This document shows, piece by piece, positions 4,890 to 16,036 of a stretch of DNA of 41,031 nt (positions are counted from its first letter, which is position 1; each line of letters starts with the position of its first letter). Under the pieces are notes generated by a model. The model was given only the letters and a program-made list of their open reading frames with translations. It was not told the DNA's origin and ran no database searches. The DNA is from Bacteroidota bacterium (GTDB lineage Bacteria; Bacteroidota; Bacteroidia; UKL13-3). The stretch is from the NCBI GenBank assembly GCA_947492885.1, contig CANLPK010000016.1, positions 1 through 41,031 on the forward strand, written 5' to 3'. Both the position numbers and the translations under genes were made by a program.

Positions 4890-5951
4890 ATGGCAGAAAT
4901 TGCCCCGAACGAAAATAATCTATACGATTACCTGGCTATTGTTAAAGGTGCTTTCTCTCGATTATGGAATAGAAAATGGATTATCTTAGCAATCACTGTG
5001 GTTTTTGCTACTGTTACCTTCTTCTATTTGAAATTGAATAAAAAGCCGGTTCAATATGTTGCGAATTGTACCTTTATGCTGTACGATTCCGACAAGGGTA
5101 TCAATTCGCTCTCAAGTGTTTTAGGCGCAAATACAGCCAGTGGCACAAGCAATAAAGATTTAATTATTTACTTGCTTGGCTCTCGTCGTATTATTGAAGA
5201 TATGCTACTTTCTCCAGCCTACTTCAATGGCAAGGAAGATTTCGTTGTAAATCATTATGCACGAGTACATAAATTCGATGAGTCTTGGAATACTCATCCG
5301 CTGCTAAAGGATTTTCGATTTAAGAAAAAACAAGATTTAGCATATTCCGATTTTCAAGATAGTGTTCTTGGCGGCATCGTTAATAGGATTTCTAGTCAGG
5401 AATCATTCGATATAGATATGAAAAGCTGGAAGATGAGCATGTCATATCGCGACGAAGATGAACACTTCGCTAAACTGATCGTAGAAAAACAAATAGATGC
5501 CCTTTGTGCATTTTATATCTCCCGTAAAAGAGTAAAAGGAGTTGAGACTGTTGATTTCCTTCAACAAAAAAGAGACTCGCTTACAATTGCATTGAGAGGT
5601 ACCGAAATGTCATTCGCTGCTTGGAAAGACTCAAATCAAAGATTGATAAAAGCTTCAGGTAGTGCGGAAGAAGGTAAATTCCGCGGTGATTTAACGATGC
5701 TTAATTCGGCATTATTGGAAAGTACTAGACAATTGGAAATGGCGAAACTCACCTTGCTCGATGAAAGTCCAATCGTTCAAACAATTGATACACCTAAATA
5801 TCCTCTTCCCAAAAATGTAACTTCCAATTGGAAATTAATATGGGTTATTGTGAATATTATTGGGTTTATTTTAATCGCAGCGATCACCGTTGGGCAAAAG
5901 TATATTTCGGATTATTTTAAAAAACAAAAACTATCGCACGCTAAAAGCTGA
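4890..5951 (+). CDS. Wzz-like polysaccharide co-polymerase / chain-length protein
   Basis: This 353-residue inner-membrane protein has the layout of polysaccharide co-polymerases. There is a cytoplasmic N-terminus, a first membrane helix at about residues 29-48 (KWIILAITVVFATVTFFYL), a long periplasmic middle with a helical central part, a Pro-rich segment (PKYPLPKN) and a second membrane helix near 314-335, followed by a basic tail. Members set chain length of surface polysaccharides together with a Wzy polymerase and dock onto the outer-membrane exporter. No tyrosine-kinase (Walker) domain is fused. It lies 14 bp after the SLBB gene and 21 bp before the NeuB-like gene, so all are probably one transcript. 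No Wzy is visible in this window. Confidence 0.8.
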   Translation: MAEIAPNENNLYDYLAIVKGAFSRLWNRKWIILAITVVFATVTFFYLKLNKKPVQYVANCTFMLYDSDKGINSLSSVLGANTASGTSNKDLIIYLLGSRRIIEDMLLSPAYFNGKEDFVVNHYARVHKFDESWNTHPLLKDFRFKKKQDLAYSDFQDSVLGGIVNRISSQESFDIDMKSWKMSMSYRDEDEHFAKLIVEKQIDALCAFYISRKRVKGVETVDFLQQKRDSLTIALRGTEMSFAAWKDSNQRLIKASGSAEEGKFRGDLTMLNSALLESTRQLEMAKLTLLDESPIVQTIDTPKYPLPKNVTSNWKLIWVIVNIIGFILIAAITVGQKYISDYFKKQKLSHAKS

Positions 5952-5972
5952 GCGATATAATACCAGAAAAGA

Positions 5973-6854
5973 ATGTTTAAATTTGATTACAAAGAGCCTA
6001 AAGTGATAGCGGAAATTGGATGCAATCACATGGGAGATTACGCCATCGCAATTGAACTTATCGACCTAGCAAAATCTTGCGGTTGTAAATATGTGAAATT
6101 TCAAAAACGCAATTCAAAGGAATTGCTTACCGATGAACAATATAATGCACCGCACCCCAATCCATGGAATAGCTACGGTTCTACTTATGGCGAACATCGC
6201 GAAAAACTTGAATTCAGCGCCGATCAACATCGCGACCTATTCGCATATTGTGAGAAAGTTGGAATAGAATACTCTACTTCTGTTTGGGATGTTACCTCCG
6301 CTAAAGAAATCATTGCATTACAACCTCATTTTATTAAGGTTCCTTCTGCATGCAATAATAATTTCGAAATGTTACAATTGCTTCGCGATGAATATAAAGG
6401 GCAAGTTCAAATTTCTTTTGGAATGACTACGCAAGCAGAGGAAGATGGTATCGTTTCGTTCTTCGAAGAAACAAATCAAGCAAAATCACGTTTAGTTGTG
6501 TATTCTTGTACAAGTGGATATCCTGTACCTGATCATGAAGTTTGCCTCCTTGAAATCAATCGAATGTATAATAAGTTTGCAGATCGTGTTTTTGAAATCG
6601 GATTTAGTGGGCATCATAATGGAATCGCACTCGATATTGCAGCATTTACACTGGGTGCACGCTGGATTGAACGTCACTTTACTGCCGATCGAACATGGAA
6701 GGGCACTGACCATGCCGCTAGCCTTGAAAAACCAGGTATGGAGAAATTAGTGCGCGATCTGAATGGTACTTTTAAAGCACTAACTTACAAGCACGAAGAG
6801 ATTCTTGAAATAGAAAAAGTGCAACGCGAGAAATTGAAATATCGCAAAAATTAA
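5973..6854 (+). CDS. NeuB/SpsE-family nonulosonate synthase without SAF domain
   Basis: This family condenses phosphoenolpyruvate with a hexosamine-type sugar (or its phosphate) to make nine-carbon acidic sugars such as Neu5Ac, legionaminic acid or KDN. The TIM-barrel motifs are present: AEIGCNHMGD (13-22), VKFQKRNS, IKVPSACNNN, SFGMTTQAEE, CTSGYPVPDHE, GFSGHH and IERHFTADRTWKGTDHAAS. The usual family form GYSDHT is GFSGHH here. The protein is only 293 residues and stops after the barrel. Classical NeuB is about 340-350 residues and ends in an antifreeze-like SAF domain, which is absent. The next gene is a KdsC-like phosphatase 1 bp downstream, which fits a route through a 9-phosphate such as KDN-9-phosphate. 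The exact substrate cannot be read from the sequence. Confidence 0.85.
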   Translation: MFKFDYKEPKVIAEIGCNHMGDYAIAIELIDLAKSCGCKYVKFQKRNSKELLTDEQYNAPHPNPWNSYGSTYGEHREKLEFSADQHRDLFAYCEKVGIEYSTSVWDVTSAKEIIALQPHFIKVPSACNNNFEMLQLLRDEYKGQVQISFGMTTQAEEDGIVSFFEETNQAKSRLVVYSCTSGYPVPDHEVCLLEINRMYNKFADRVFEIGFSGHHNGIALDIAAFTLGARWIERHFTADRTWKGTDHAASLEKPGMEKLVRDLNGTFKALTYKHEEILEIEKVQREKLKYRKN

Positions 6855-6855
6855 A

Positions 6856-7377
6856 ATGACAAGCCAACTCCAAAATATTAAACTTCTTATAATGGACTGT
6901 GATGGTGTACTTACCGATGCAGGTATGTATTATAATGCAGAGGGAGATAACCTAAAGAAATTTTCTACCTACGATGGAATGGGTATAAACCTATTGCGCC
7001 GGATTGGAATTAAATCTGCAATTATCACTGGCGAAAACTCACCTATCGTAGCACGCAGAGCAGAGAAATTAAAAATTGAACACGTATATTTAGGATGTGC
7101 CGATAAGCTAACTGCAGCGAGGGAAATATGCATGAACGAGAAAATTTCAATTCGCGATATTGCATTTATTGGAGATGATATCAACGATCTTGAGCTGCTT
7201 CGTAATGTAGGTTTCGCAGCCTGTCCGCCCAACGCTAGGAAGGAGGTGAAAATGATTGAAAATATTCACTTGCTTGAAACCCCAGGAGGGCAAGGTACGG
7301 TAAGAGAGCTAGCCGACTTAATTTTAAAATCTAAAGGAATTAAAATTGGCAACCTACTTCAATCAAATATTCAATAA
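6856..7377 (+). CDS. KdsC-like HAD phosphatase (nonulosonate- or KDO-phosphate phosphatase)
   Basis: A 173-residue HAD hydrolase of the capless, tetrameric KdsC type. Motif I is MDCDGVLTD with nucleophile Asp14 and Asp16. The Thr/Ser motif lies in IITGEN near residue 57, a conserved Lys is in CADKL (84), and the metal motif GDDIND is at 106-111. KdsC removes phosphate from KDO-8-phosphate, and close relatives act on KDN-9-phosphate or Neu5Ac-9-phosphate. It follows the NeuB-like gene with a single base between them and precedes the SDR by 9 bp, so I infer that it dephosphorylates the NeuB product. A role as the housekeeping KDO-8-phosphate phosphatase remains possible, since no kdsA or kdsB is nearby. 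Confidence 0.85.
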   Translation: MTSQLQNIKLLIMDCDGVLTDAGMYYNAEGDNLKKFSTYDGMGINLLRRIGIKSAIITGENSPIVARRAEKLKIEHVYLGCADKLTAAREICMNEKISIRDIAFIGDDINDLELLRNVGFAACPPNARKEVKMIENIHLLETPGGQGTVRELADLILKSKGIKIGNLLQSNIQ

Positions 7378-7386
7378 TAGCCTACA

Positions 7387-8169
7387 ATGAATACAAATCC
7401 CGCAATAATACTCACTGGAGGCCTCGGACTGATTGGCAAGTCAACAGCACATTTTCTAGCGAGTAAAGGCTACCATATCATCATCGTTGACATTGCCCCT
7501 AACTGCGATTTCATCTCAGATAACATTAGCTATATTCAATTTGATTTAATGCTAATTGAGAACTATGCAGCCTTGATGGAAATGGTGAAACAACACACCG
7601 ACAATCTTAAAGGCGTAATAAATAATGCCGCATTCAATCCGAAAGTAGAAGATAATAGCATCAGTGTTGGGAAATTTGAAGATTTGAATTTACTCGAATG
7701 GCGCAAAGAAGTAAACCTGAATTTAACAGCACCGATCTTTCTTATTCAAGCGCTATTACCGCTATTTAATCATGCCGATGCCACACCATGTAAAATAGTA
7801 AATGTTATTTCAACTTACGGCTTAGTACCCCCCAACCAAGATATTTATAAAGGACTTGGTGCGATTCAAGGAAAGGAAGTATTTAAACCGATTAATTACC
7901 CAGTCACAAAAGCAGGACTTGCCATGGCAACGAAATACTTGGCGGTTTATTTGGGCGACCGAGGATTCAATGTTAATGGCATCGCTCCAGGTGGAATTGC
8001 TAATAATCAACCTCAAGTATTTGTTGATGCCTATGCCGCGCTTACACCCATGAAGAGAATGGCCAAAGTGGAAGAGATGATGGAAACATTTTATTTATTA
8101 TGCAGCAAAGGAAGCGATTATATCAATGGACAAATTATTGCCGTTGATGGGGGATGGACTGCTTGGTAA
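7387..8169 (+). CDS. SDR-family oxidoreductase (PtmA-like)
   Basis: A classical 260-residue short-chain dehydrogenase. It has the cofactor loop TGGLGLIG (10-17), the NNAA motif (79-82), catalytic Ser142 (VISTYG) and YPVTK with Tyr171 and Lys175. A conserved tail GSDYINGQIIAVDGGW is typical of the family. A long segment between Ser and Tyr (QDIYKGLG...FKPIN) resembles SDRs found in nonulosonate loci, for example the PtmA group linked to legionaminic acid in Campylobacter flagellin modification. I infer a role in preparing or modifying the acidic sugar, but the substrate is unknown. The gene is embedded between the HAD phosphatase and the GNAT gene. Confidence 0.8.
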   Translation: MNTNPAIILTGGLGLIGKSTAHFLASKGYHIIIVDIAPNCDFISDNISYIQFDLMLIENYAALMEMVKQHTDNLKGVINNAAFNPKVEDNSISVGKFEDLNLLEWRKEVNLNLTAPIFLIQALLPLFNHADATPCKIVNVISTYGLVPPNQDIYKGLGAIQGKEVFKPINYPVTKAGLAMATKYLAVYLGDRGFNVNGIAPGGIANNQPQVFVDAYAALTPMKRMAKVEEMMETFYLLCSKGSDYINGQIIAVDGGWTAW

Positions 8170-8218
8170 AAGATGCCATCTTTAGATTGATCACAGAAAT
8201 AATATCAATTAAAAATCT

Positions 8219-8758
8219 ATGCTACTTATTCGTAAAGCTACCAGTAATGATGCAGAAGCAATTCTTAGCATATACAAACCATTTATCGAAAATACTGCTA
8301 TCACTTTCGAATATACAGTTCCTGATATCGAAGAATTCCGATTGCGTATCAATCCAATTATAGAACATTATCCGTACCTGGTTTGTGAATTTAATAATCA
8401 AGTAATTGGTTATGCCTATGCACACAAATTTCGTGAACGTGCGGCCTACGATTGGGATATAGAAACTTCTGTTTATGTCGATGAACAATTCCATCAACAA
8501 GGAGTCGCCACAAAACTCTATGAAAAACTTATTGATGAATGCACTTTACAAGGCTTTCATAATGCTTTTGCTGGCATCACCTTGCCAAATATTAAAAGCG
8601 AAAGATTTCACGCAAAATTAGGATTTACAGAAATTGGAGTATTTAAAAATGCGGGATTCAAGCAAGGTGCCTGGCATAGCGTGCTCTTTATGGAACGCAA
8701 TCTTATTCCTTGCGAAGGAACTCCAGAGCCCGTGAAATCCAAACATACAGGGAATTAA
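8219..8758 (+). CDS. GNAT acetyltransferase, phosphinothricin/L-amino-acid N-acetyltransferase-like
   Basis: A 179-residue GNAT protein. The acetyl-CoA binding motif is at QQGVATKLYEKL (about 96-107), preceded by the strand ETSVYVDE. The pattern of LPN-x-KSERFHAKLGF, then FKNAGFKQGAWHSVLFMER, is that of the PAT/MnaT (YncA) group, which acetylates small amino-group substrates such as phosphinothricin or methionine sulfoximine. The gene is 49 bp after the SDR and ends the operon before a hairpin. It could acetylate an amino sugar of the cassette, but its closest motif match is to amino-acid acetyltransferases, so it may simply be a passenger. Confidence 0.8.
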   Translation: MLLIRKATSNDAEAILSIYKPFIENTAITFEYTVPDIEEFRLRINPIIEHYPYLVCEFNNQVIGYAYAHKFRERAAYDWDIETSVYVDEQFHQQGVATKLYEKLIDECTLQGFHNAFAGITLPNIKSERFHAKLGFTEIGVFKNAGFKQGAWHSVLFMERNLIPCEGTPEPVKSKHTGN

Positions 8759-11861: not shown

Positions 11862-12641
11862 TCATTCAATATTTGCCATCTTCTTCTTCGCCACTATCTG
11901 ATTCGCAAAACTTACATCAATGCTACTGTATTTCTCCCATCCGGCCTTTGGTAACGCTTGTTTGTAAAATGCTAAGAGTCGCTCAAACTTCCCTTCAATA
12001 TCATTTGCATCTCCAAAAACAACCTTCATATCTCCCAGTTTTGTGGTTAAAACTATTACACTATCGGATGTTACAAAAATCTGTTCAATCGAGCTAAACC
12101 AAAAGGGAGTCTTATGCACATATTGTGCAATACCGGCGCACGTTTTCAGAATATTCGAATTGATTGTGTCACATTTAGTACACTTCTCAGAAATGTTGCC
12201 ATTGCATACTGCAACTCTAGCAGTGAAATTTTCACTCAATGGCATCTTCATATTTTCTTCATCCACATAGTAACTTTCATTGTCAAGATTAAATACTCGC
12301 ATTACCGCCTTACGTTGCCAAACCTTTATAAACACTGCCCCATCAACAGCTTTATACACCTCTGCTTTTTTTATATGTGGGTTGTTTTCTAATAAGCTTT
12401 CAATTTTGCTTGCATCAATATTCTCTATTCTGTTTCCAATAATTTGTGTCGATTGAATATAGTCTAACACCAAGTCCGAATCTATAAAATGGTTGTTCTC
12501 CGTTCCTTCTATCTGGATATTGATCTTTTCGCAAATCTGATTTTGTCTGTGTGCATTAATCATGAAAATCAATACTCCTACACCTGCTATCAACAGCGTC
12601 CAAACAGCAATCAGGAGTATTTTTTTTGTCTGCAATTTCAT
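11862..12641 (-). CDS. ftsQ: Cell division protein FtsQ
   Basis: A 259-residue bitopic membrane protein. It has a short basic N-terminus, a membrane helix at about residues 8-27 (ILLIAVWTLLIAGVGVLIFM) and a periplasmic POTRA-like region. The latter contains INIQIEGTENNHFIDSDLVL and the segment NNPHIKKAEVYKA, typical of FtsQ. It belongs to the FtsQBL subcomplex that activates septal peptidoglycan synthesis. FtsQ is poorly conserved, so the call rests on topology and on its place between murC-murB and ftsA, 9 bp after the former. Confidence 0.9.
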   Translation of the reverse strand: MKLQTKKILLIAVWTLLIAGVGVLIFMINAHRQNQICEKINIQIEGTENNHFIDSDLVLDYIQSTQIIGNRIENIDASKIESLLENNPHIKKAEVYKAVDGAVFIKVWQRKAVMRVFNLDNESYYVDEENMKMPLSENFTARVAVCNGNISEKCTKCDTINSNILKTCAGIAQYVHKTPFWFSSIEQIFVTSDSVIVLTTKLGDMKVVFGDANDIEGKFERLLAFYKQALPKAGWEKYSSIDVSFANQIVAKKKMANIE

Positions 12642-12650
12642 TTCCTAACC

Positions 12651-14951
12651 TTATTTTAATTGATATGATTTTTCACCTACTTGCATTACCTCAGTATGTA
12701 ATCTTACATTAAACTTTGTTTCTATAGTCTCAATAATAAAACTCACCAATTCCATGAATTCTTGCGCTGTGGCTCCTCCATTGTTTACAATGAAATTGGC
12801 ATGCTTCGGCGATACTTGCACTTGGCCATGTATATATCCTTTTAGCCCAGCATCTTCAATAAGTTTGCCTGCATACTGCGGTAATGGGTTTTTAAATACA
12901 CTTCCTGTATTTGGTTTATCTAGCGGCTGCGCATCCTTCCTTTTTTCAAGCAATGTTTTACGCTTTAAACTAACGGCTTCAATATCTTCAGCTTGTTTTA
13001 ATTCAAAGGTGGTCTCTAAAATAATATCATTAGCAAATTCGGTATGCCGATAACTATGTTGAATCTCATTTTTCAACTTTTCTTGAACCTTACCATGGCG
13101 AATGAATTTAACTTTTTGAATGCAATCGAAAACCTCGGTGCCATAAGCTCCTGCATTCATGCGCGTTGCACCTCCAATGGTAGCAGGCACTCCAGCAGTA
13201 GCCTCCAATCCTTCATATCCCAATTTTAGACTTTCCAATACAAATTTGGGTAATGAGTAGGAAGCACTTACTGTAAATAAATTACCCTCTTGACTGAAAA
13301 TTGTTTCGGCTTCTCCCATCGCAAGTACAATGCCGCGAATGCCTGCATCACTTACCAATAAATTACTTCCGTTACCAAGAATAAATAATGGAATCAAATA
13401 CTTCTCCGCAAATGCTGCCGTAAGTATAATATCATTTTGATTTTTGGGCTTCACCAAAATATCTGCAGGGCCTCCAATTTTTAGCCAGGTATATTTCATC
13501 ATGGGCTCCTGTGTATGCACACTTCCTTCAAGTATATCTCCGAGCTCACTTGCATATTCACTGGCATTGATTCTAAGTAATTCATTTTTTATTGGGAGAA
13601 CAAGTGCATCGATATCTCCTGCTCCAAGACTTACCATCACCTCCGGATTACTCGCTGTAACCAATTTCGCTAGCATCTCTTTTGAACAAATACTTTTTTT
13701 ATTATGAAGCTTATTGAAAATAATTTCAGAAGTAATTCCCTCAATTGGAAGTTCTCTTGCAGGATAAATATCTAATAAAAACACTTCATCTAATAAATTC
13801 AAGCTCTCCGCAAAGCCATCAACAAAGTCGCGAGTACGCGAAAATAAATGTGGTTGAAATGCACCTGTGATTTTTTGATTTGGATAGAGCGCTCTCACCG
13901 AACTAATAAAAGCCCTTAGCTCTTCTGGATGATGGGCATAGTCATCAATGAAAATATGTTTCGGATGTTTTAAAATATATTCAAACCGACGCTTTACTCC
14001 TTGAAACGTCTTGAGCCCATCTCTAATTTCATCCGCCTTCAATCCCACAGCCAGCACAGCACTAATTGCCGCTACTGCATTCTCTACATTATGCGAGCCA
14101 GGTATCCCCGATTCGAGATTAGAAATACGAACGCCAGTTTGACAATTGAAATAATCAAAAATATATACCCCCGATTCAATTCTAATATTCTCTGCAATAA
14201 TATCCGATTCAGTTTCACTAATTGAAAAAGATAGGTGCTTGCCATCATTGAAATTAAGTGGTAAATTTTGCTTGTAAAACAAAATTCCATCCTTGTTTAA
14301 TCTGTTTGCAAAATCTTGAAACCCTTGATGAAACGAGGCTTCCGACCCATAAATATCCAGATGGTCGGGGTCCATACTGTTGATAATACTGTAGGTTGGC
14401 GACAATTTCAAAAACGAACGATCATATTCATCGGCTTCAACAACACATATAGCAGGGGTTTTGTTGTTAAATGGTAACAACAAATTTGTTTGGTAGTTCG
14501 TAGCAATACCTCCTAAAAAGGCTAAGCAATTTTTTCCACTATGATACAATAAATGTGCAACCAAACTCGATGTGGTAGTTTTTCCATGGGTGCCAGCAAC
14601 CGCAATGGTGGTATAGTTTTCGCTTATTAGTCCGAGAATTTCCGCACGTTTTTTTATGGTAAATTGGTGATCCTGCAATACATTCCACTCAGCAAAATCT
14701 TTCGGAATAGCAGGTGTTAGAACTACTAAGGTATCGTTTATGTTTAAATCGTGGTTCGCAATTGTTTGTGCGCCCTCATCAGTATAATGAATTTTTATAC
14801 CTTCTTCACTGAGGCGCTGTGTGAGCGGTGTTGGTGTTTTATCGTAGCCGCACACCGTCATCCCAAGATGATTGAAATATCGAGCCAAGGCCGACATCCC
14901 AATTCCTCCAATACCTAGGAAATAAACTTTTTTATACTGAGCGAACGACAT
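12651..14951 (-). CDS. murC/murB: MurC-MurB fusion: UDP-MurNAc:L-alanine ligase joined to UDP-MurNAc dehydrogenase
   Basis: One uninterrupted 766-residue frame carries two enzymes. Residues 1 to about 455 are MurC: FLGIGGIGMSALA (11-23), the ATP loop AGTHGKTTTSS, EADEYDRSF, and the C-terminal SLGAGDIDAL. After a linker of about 20 residues, residues from about 480 to 766 are MurB: an FAD-binding part (WLKIGGPADILV, LGNGSNLLV, GVPATIGGATRMNAGAYG) and a C-terminal domain with Arg635 in SYRHTEF, catalytic Ser684 in NTGSVFKNP and Glu754 in HTEVMQVG. The MurB part is about 290 residues and looks like the short type II class. MurB makes UDP-MurNAc, which is the substrate of MurC, so the fusion joins successive steps in reverse domain order. 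The start overlaps the murG stop by one base (TAATG). Confidence 0.95.
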   Translation of the reverse strand: MSFAQYKKVYFLGIGGIGMSALARYFNHLGMTVCGYDKTPTPLTQRLSEEGIKIHYTDEGAQTIANHDLNINDTLVVLTPAIPKDFAEWNVLQDHQFTIKKRAEILGLISENYTTIAVAGTHGKTTTSSLVAHLLYHSGKNCLAFLGGIATNYQTNLLLPFNNKTPAICVVEADEYDRSFLKLSPTYSIINSMDPDHLDIYGSEASFHQGFQDFANRLNKDGILFYKQNLPLNFNDGKHLSFSISETESDIIAENIRIESGVYIFDYFNCQTGVRISNLESGIPGSHNVENAVAAISAVLAVGLKADEIRDGLKTFQGVKRRFEYILKHPKHIFIDDYAHHPEELRAFISSVRALYPNQKITGAFQPHLFSRTRDFVDGFAESLNLLDEVFLLDIYPARELPIEGITSEIIFNKLHNKKSICSKEMLAKLVTASNPEVMVSLGAGDIDALVLPIKNELLRINASEYASELGDILEGSVHTQEPMMKYTWLKIGGPADILVKPKNQNDIILTAAFAEKYLIPLFILGNGSNLLVSDAGIRGIVLAMGEAETIFSQEGNLFTVSASYSLPKFVLESLKLGYEGLEATAGVPATIGGATRMNAGAYGTEVFDCIQKVKFIRHGKVQEKLKNEIQHSYRHTEFANDIILETTFELKQAEDIEAVSLKRKTLLEKRKDAQPLDKPNTGSVFKNPLPQYAGKLIEDAGLKGYIHGQVQVSPKHANFIVNNGGATAQEFMELVSFIIETIETKFNVRLHTEVMQVGEKSYQLK

Positions 14952-16036
14952 TATTTTTTCGGTACTAATTTTAAAATTTCATCAACAATTTTTTCCGTTG
15001 CATCCATACGGGCCATTTCCGAAATGTTTTTCTTTAATTCATTTCTATGTTTCTCATCTTTCATCAATACCAATACCTCATTAATTAATTGTTGTGGTGC
15101 ATCAGCGTCTGTAACCATTACAGCAGCTTTGCGATTTACTAGTGCCATTGCATTCTTCGTTTGATGGTCCTCAGCAACATTTGGTGAAGGCACTAAAATG
15201 CATGCTTTATTCGCGCAACTCATCTCGCTTATACTTAAAGCACCTGCTCTCGAAATCACCATGTCGGCTACTGCATAGGCCATATCCATTTCTTTTATGA
15301 AATCAACTACCTTAATAAACTCACTATTCAACTGCTTGTAATTTTCGTAATAGTATGCTCCTGTTTGCCAAAGCACATTAATCTTGGCTTCTTGTAATTT
15401 TTGAATTCCCTCTGCGATACTTTTATTAATTGTACCTGAGCCTAAACTCCCACCTAAAATTAGTAGGGTCTTCTTCTCATCATCAAGCTTGAACAGCTTT
15501 ATTGCATTGTTTTTTTTACTATAAATATTGATGATGTCTTTTCTAATTGGATTGCCAGTCTGCACAATTTTATGTGATGGGAAAAACTGATCCATTCCAT
15601 CATATGAAACACAAATCGTATTTACTTTTTTAGCTAGTAATTTATTAGTTAATCCAGCATACGAATTTTGTTCTTGTATTACCGTTTTGATTCCCATCGA
15701 AGCGGCTTCGTTCACAATGGAGCCACTTGCAAATCCACCAGTACCTATAACCACATCCGGCTGAAATGATTTGATGATTTTACGAGCTTTAAACTTGCTT
15801 GCAAGCACTTTGAATGGAAACAACAAATTGCCAAATGTTAGTTTTCTCTGAAGCCCACTAATCCACAATCCTTCTATCTTATAACCATTGGCAGGTACTT
15901 TTTCCATTTCCATCTTGTCCTGTGCCCCTACAAATAAAATCTCACATGATGGATCTCTACGCTTTAATTCATTGGCTATTGCAATGGCAGGATAAATATG
16001 TCCTCCAGTGCCGCCTCCTGATAAAATGTATTTCAT
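14951..16036 (-). CDS. murG: UDP-GlcNAc:undecaprenyl-PP-MurNAc-pentapeptide GlcNAc transferase
   Basis: MurG is a membrane-associated GT28 glycosyltransferase that turns lipid I into lipid II on the cytoplasmic face. The N-terminal donor/acceptor loop SGGGTGGHIYPAIAIA (6-21), VIGTGGFASGSIV near residue 95, LILGGSLGSGTINKS near 190 and the UDP-binding SRAGALSISEM near 263 are all present. At 361 residues it has normal length. It is 18 bp after ftsW and shares a base with the next gene, so the two are likely translationally coupled. Confidence 0.97.
   Translation of the reverse strand: MKYILSGGGTGGHIYPAIAIANELKRRDPSCEILFVGAQDKMEMEKVPANGYKIEGLWISGLQRKLTFGNLLFPFKVLASKFKARKIIKSFQPDVVIGTGGFASGSIVNEAASMGIKTVIQEQNSYAGLTNKLLAKKVNTICVSYDGMDQFFPSHKIVQTGNPIRKDIINIYSKKNNAIKLFKLDDEKKTLLILGGSLGSGTINKSIAEGIQKLQEAKINVLWQTGAYYYENYKQLNSEFIKVVDFIKEMDMAYAVADMVISRAGALSISEMSCANKACILVPSPNVAEDHQTKNAMALVNRKAAVMVTDADAPQQLINEVLVLMKDEKHRNELKKNISEMARMDATEKIVDEILKLVPKK

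Follow-up and report, generated by a model that had tools for sequence, protein, structure and literature searches.

The closest described system is the MurC–MurB fusion of Verrucomicrobium spinosum, a protein of 770 residues with MurC first, which complements both murB and murC mutants of Escherichia coli and has MurC activity in vitro, whereas MurB activity could not be demonstrated in such assays (PMC4803751). The gene is essential in V. spinosum (PMC12283558). Fusions of this kind have been reported only from Verrucomicrobia, including other Verrucomicrobiales and Methylacidiphilales, and the authors of that 2016 study raised channelling and equimolarity as ideas on what the fusion might offer (PMC4803751). 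Our literature search found no report of a MurC–MurB fusion from Bacteroidota. In Chlamydia, MurC is also the N-terminal partner in a fusion to a peptidoglycan enzyme, but there the partner is Ddl (NF011171). With regard to the dcw cluster, a published study states that the FBC superphylum lost murB from it (PMC8871954).

The window considered here, by which we mean the whole stretch of 41,031 nucleotides that was analysed, comes from a member of the Bacteroidia and carries a murC::murB fusion gene within a dcw cluster. The initial annotation of this DNA named only MurC–Ddl as an established precedent; as a kind, however, the fusion is not new, given that MurC–MurB proteins with the same domain order have been published from Verrucomicrobia (PMC4803751, PMC12283558). 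The protein resembles that of V. spinosum in being encoded by a single frame, with MurC at the N-terminus, a complete MurB at the C-terminus and a length of about 770 residues (766 versus 770) and, like most Verrucomicrobial fusions, its gene has murG on one side and the ftsQ end of the dcw cluster on the other. Compared with the Verrucomicrobial fusions as published, it differs in belonging to another phylum, in having a native Bacteroidia MurC as its first half, and in the absence of ddlB between the fusion and ftsQ. Since the published fusion has been found only in Verrucomicrobia, its presence in Bacteroidia extends the known range.

Architecture of the fusion gene

The fusion gene occupies positions 12651–14951 on the minus strand, with an ATG start and its stop codon at 12651–12653, and it is shared by every one of the five genus members analysed. 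Within the 766-residue product, Pfam places the Mur_ligase, Mur_ligase_M and Mur_ligase_C domains in residues 8–416, FAD_binding_4 in residues 497–617 and MurB_C in residues 663–756. Against the NCBIfam models, the protein scores 347.3 bits with TIGR01082 (murC; cut-off 335.1; residues 8–447), 306 bits with NF010480 (MurB; cut-off 259; residues 473–761) and 208 with TIGR00179 (cut-off 144.5). The proposal that one uninterrupted frame of 766 codons holds a complete MurC and a complete MurB is therefore borne out, as both halves exceed their equivalog cut-offs; by comparison, the model for the MurC–Ddl fusion, NF011171, gives only 211 against a cut-off of 1015.

The MurC part comprises approximately residues 1–461 (13569–14951, minus strand) and the MurB part residues 463–766 (12654–13565, minus strand); as the gene is read from the minus strand, its 3′ portion encodes MurB. 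The initial annotation had correctly placed MurB at this end of the gene, but its extent, given there as 12651 to about 13532, is corrected here to about 12654–13565. The ATP-binding loop of MurC, GTHGKTTT, is intact at residues 120–127 (14571–14594), and the residues expected in the MurB active site are found exactly where they had been predicted: Arg635 in the motif SYRHTEF (13047–13049), the putative proton donor Ser684 in NTGSVFKNP (12900–12902) and Glu754 in LHTEV (12690–12692), all on the minus strand and all, like the ATP loop, invariant in the genus.

The assignment of the MurB half to type II likewise stands: it passes NF010480 yet falls below the cut-off of the type I model NF000755 (114 versus 277), and it lacks the ∼30 additional residues that type I enzymes have in the MurB_C region; this region spans 282 nt in the fusion as opposed to mostly 366–378 nt in type I relatives. 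The putative proton donor at residue 684 is serine rather than cysteine, which is the mark of type IIa (as defined in PMC3689657). We also considered whether a separate MurB could be produced from an internal start; there is an in-frame GTG at codon 478, but valine 478 is not conserved across the genus, and this candidate was set aside.

The junction and the predicted structure

An AlphaFold2 model calculated from a 40-row alignment has a mean pLDDT of 91.9 and a pTM of 0.80. It predicts that an uninterrupted helix, comprising residues 445–473 (13533–13619, minus strand), joins the last helix of MurC to the first helix of MurB, with pLDDT values of 87–96 in the blocks spanning residues 441–480. 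The joint coincides almost exactly with the C-terminus of stand-alone MurCs and with the N-terminus of stand-alone type II MurBs. There is no extra linker here in the genus, nor in the fusion from family f86 described below, whereas that of family f99 has ∼10 more residues. The closest solved folds to the modelled MurB part are the MurB structures 4pyt, 3tx1 and 1hsk (TM-scores of 0.90–0.93); the value for the type I MurB of Pseudomonas aeruginosa is 0.74. For MurC crystal structures, the best scores are ∼0.85–0.89, by target.

Genomic context and absence of the type I enzyme

From the sequence, the gene order is murE-mraY-murD-ftsW-murG-murC::murB-ftsQ-ftsA-ftsZ. The upstream neighbour, murG (14951–16036, minus strand), overlaps the fusion gene by one base, and the order is the same in the genus. 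The downstream neighbour (11862–12641, minus strand) is taken to be ftsQ: its product has no Pfam match above the cut-off and is recognised only by its position and its similarity (≤44% identity) to the proteins encoded at the ftsQ position elsewhere in the family. In ten relatives from the family, this ftsQ-position gene lies directly behind murC. Next to ftsZ, on the plus strand of the window (4890–8758), there is a block that by eye resembles surface-polysaccharide genes, encoding a chain-length-type protein, a NeuB-type synthase, a HAD-type phosphatase, an SDR-type protein and an acetyltransferase; it lies beside the dcw cluster in genomes G001, G002 and G003 and is mostly absent there in genome G004.

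The fusion is present as one frame of 775–804 residues, stop to stop, in five of five genomes of the genus, always in the same dcw cluster and with the order murG-murCB-ftsQ-ftsA-ftsZ retained; identities between our protein and its counterparts in the other four members are 97, 71, 69 and 69%. According to the genomes analysed here, the loss of murB from the dcw cluster is not general in the GTDB phylum.

In the source genome (89% complete), the single MurB_C match is the fusion, and the same is true of each of the other four genomes (99–100% complete). A second, stand-alone murB, which the initial annotation had suggested looking for, was found in none of these five. The order comprises 64 genomes, all from one family, and 62 of these have a MurB match: the five members of the genus are fused, and the rest have a stand-alone MurB with the long MurB_C region. 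The MurB of one sampled relative from the family is of the E. coli type, scoring 462 bits with NF000755 against the cut-off of 277. The native type I murB is therefore gone from the genus, where a type II MurB fused to the native MurC has taken over.

Distribution in Bacteroidia and beyond

Across a sample of 395 genomes drawn from the class Bacteroidia, fused MurBs were found only in the genus itself, in a single genome of family f86 (G487) and in four genomes of family f99 (G509, G565, G539 and G590). The fused open frames in this sample encode 764–833 residues, apart from one of 665 that is truncated at the edge of a contig. In three genomes from one genus of family f89, a type II murB stands alone, unlinked to murC, and all other matches in the 395 genomes score below 75 bits with the model used, which is the type I range. 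The sister family within the order of f99, f17, has no fusion. The f86 and f99 fusions share with ours the domain order, the type II MurB and the dcw location, and complete copies have 763–807 residues; they differ in belonging to other families and orders and in having MurC halves that do not form a clade with that of the genus, the f99 fusions additionally having the longer linker. In G590, the fused MurC–MurB (L104:7154–9577) is very diverged: both halves are below some equivalog cut-offs, and they form long branches in the MurC and MurB trees.

Elsewhere in the phylum, in classes other than Bacteroidia, the type II murBs that we fetched mostly lie directly behind murC but are unfused. Such pairs, which are also seen in Fusobacterium, have the same genes in the same order, albeit as two separate frames; a match to a Fusobacterium ‘plasmid’ that spanned both halves proved to be two adjacent genes of this sort. 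A search for relatives of MurB among viral contigs found none. A long MurB frame in G196 was dismissed as a chance frame, the stretch being full of overlapping open frames. We noted, in addition, that in the three f89 loci (L098, L099 and L100) the same kind of gene lies directly behind the type II murB, and in the one that was scanned it encodes a Sua5/YrdC-type threonylcarbamoyl-AMP synthase. Furthermore, two MurBs from family f46 (L175:1294–2898 in G276 and L177:25–1380 in G393) have a C-terminal extension without a Pfam match, which in G276 comprises ∼235 residues; the C-terminal ends are similar in the two proteins.

Origin of the two halves

The two halves of the fusion have different affinities in trees that were built without the Verrucomicrobial fusions and in which the order of G487 is one genome. 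In the MurC tree, the MurC halves of the genus lie within their own family (support 95/98), whereas the f86 MurC groups with that of family f10 (92/93); a MurC clade of the genus with f86 is weakly rejected (p = 0.034) and one that also includes f99 is rejected (p = 0.0013). Nor is there a trace of a mosaic or partial import of the f86 murC, as windowed identities gave no MurC segment for which f86 is a nearer match than the best member of the family. Correspondingly, the RpoB tree puts the genus inside the family (100/100) and f86 outside; as an aside, the rpoB of G565 (L168), from family f99, contains a single in-frame TGA that interrupts it. The MurB tree unites the genus with f86 in a clade (100/97) inside type II, which stands apart from type I (100/100). 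Placement of the genus MurB with type I is rejected (p = 0.0096), although uniting every fused MurB in one clade is not (p = 0.40), and the nearest sampled MurB outside the genus is only ∼47% identical. The MurC half is therefore the native MurC of the family, and the MurB half, a type II enzyme, is foreign to it.

Several explanations for this pattern may be weighed. The genomes of the genus are draft assemblies, and a public record with 97% protein identity, uncultured Bacteroidetes KTt_bin-2886, is a metagenome bin; nevertheless, we regard the chance that the fusion is an artefact of assembly, binning or frameshift as negligible. Five genomes at 69–97% identity share the identical architecture and gene order, which rules out the frameshift or mis-join between the halves that the initial annotation had raised as a concern, and in the closest pair within the genus both halves are under purifying selection (dN/dS is 0.05 in MurC and 0.09 in MurB). 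Import of the fused gene in its entirety, perhaps from Verrucomicrobiota or another fusion-bearing lineage of Bacteroidia, also appears highly improbable. The same architecture exists in Verrucomicrobia (PMC4803751), and the MurB halves of the genus and f86 do form a well-supported clade, but such an import is at odds with the position of the MurC half in its own family, with the lack of mosaicism and with the rejection of both MurC clades that include f86. In particular, the apparent Bacteroidia origin of the MurC half speaks against descent of the whole gene from a Verrucomicrobial fusion. Rather, a native MurC, a foreign type II MurB and the disappearance of the type I murB together argue that the fusion was assembled inside Bacteroidia.

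Alternatively, the fusion, or an adjacent type II murB, could be ancestral in Bacteroidia, with a few lineages having kept it and most having switched to type I. Consistent with this, murC adjoins the type II murB in most of those sampled genomes from other classes that possess one, the RpoB tree accords with the branching of the MurBs, in which the genus joins f86 and is separate from f99 and f89, and the fused MurBs may be constrained to one clade without rejection. Yet all other genera of the family that have a match carry type I, such that retention would demand several losses within the family and many more across the class, and the linker of the f99 fusion is the longer by ∼10 residues; we thus consider this scenario unlikely. 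The suggestion in the initial annotation that an adjacent murB was ‘acquired or retained’ and then fused holds insofar as a murB would have been added beside the native murC and joined to it; of the two options, acquisition fits better, because the genus is nested in a family in which the remaining members have a stand-alone type I MurB. An origin of its own is most likely for the fusion of this genus.

Proposed function and significance

Taken together, we think it very probable that the gene encodes a bifunctional MurC–MurB enzyme, which was formed inside Bacteroidia from the native murC and a type II murB, with loss of the type I murB. We infer both catalytic activities, as well as the order of events and the benefit of fusion. 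The C-terminal type IIa MurB half would convert UDP-GlcNAc-enolpyruvate to UDP-MurNAc, using FAD and NADPH, and the N-terminal MurC half would then ligate L-alanine onto UDP-MurNAc, using ATP. Presumably, a type II murB came to occupy the site immediately behind this lineage's own murC and ahead of ftsQ in the dcw operon, where the end of the murC frame was joined directly to the start of the murB frame; subsequently, the former type I murB, a stand-alone gene, would have been lost, leaving the MurB half as the only detected MurB of the genus. The advantage could be a single expression unit with a fixed 1:1 ratio of the two activities and, perhaps, a local hand-over of UDP-MurNAc. Both channelling and equimolarity, also put forward in the initial annotation, are plausible for this fusion. 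More tentatively, and with rather less conviction, it is conceivable that such fusions have at least three independent origins in Bacteroidia and a separate one in Verrucomicrobiota, invariably placing MurC first and, in this genus, linking the halves by a rigid helix, since physical coupling of the two enzymes was selected, be it for the hand-over of UDP-MurNAc or for a fixed stoichiometry.

Overall, the finding lifts the published restriction of the MurC–MurB fusion to Verrucomicrobia, and it reveals the swap of an essential enzyme, in which a type II MurB, joined to the native MurC, took the place of a type I MurB. Moreover, as the genomes with the fusion adjoin relatives with separate enzymes, the effect of fusing successive enzymes of peptidoglycan synthesis is directly comparable within this group.
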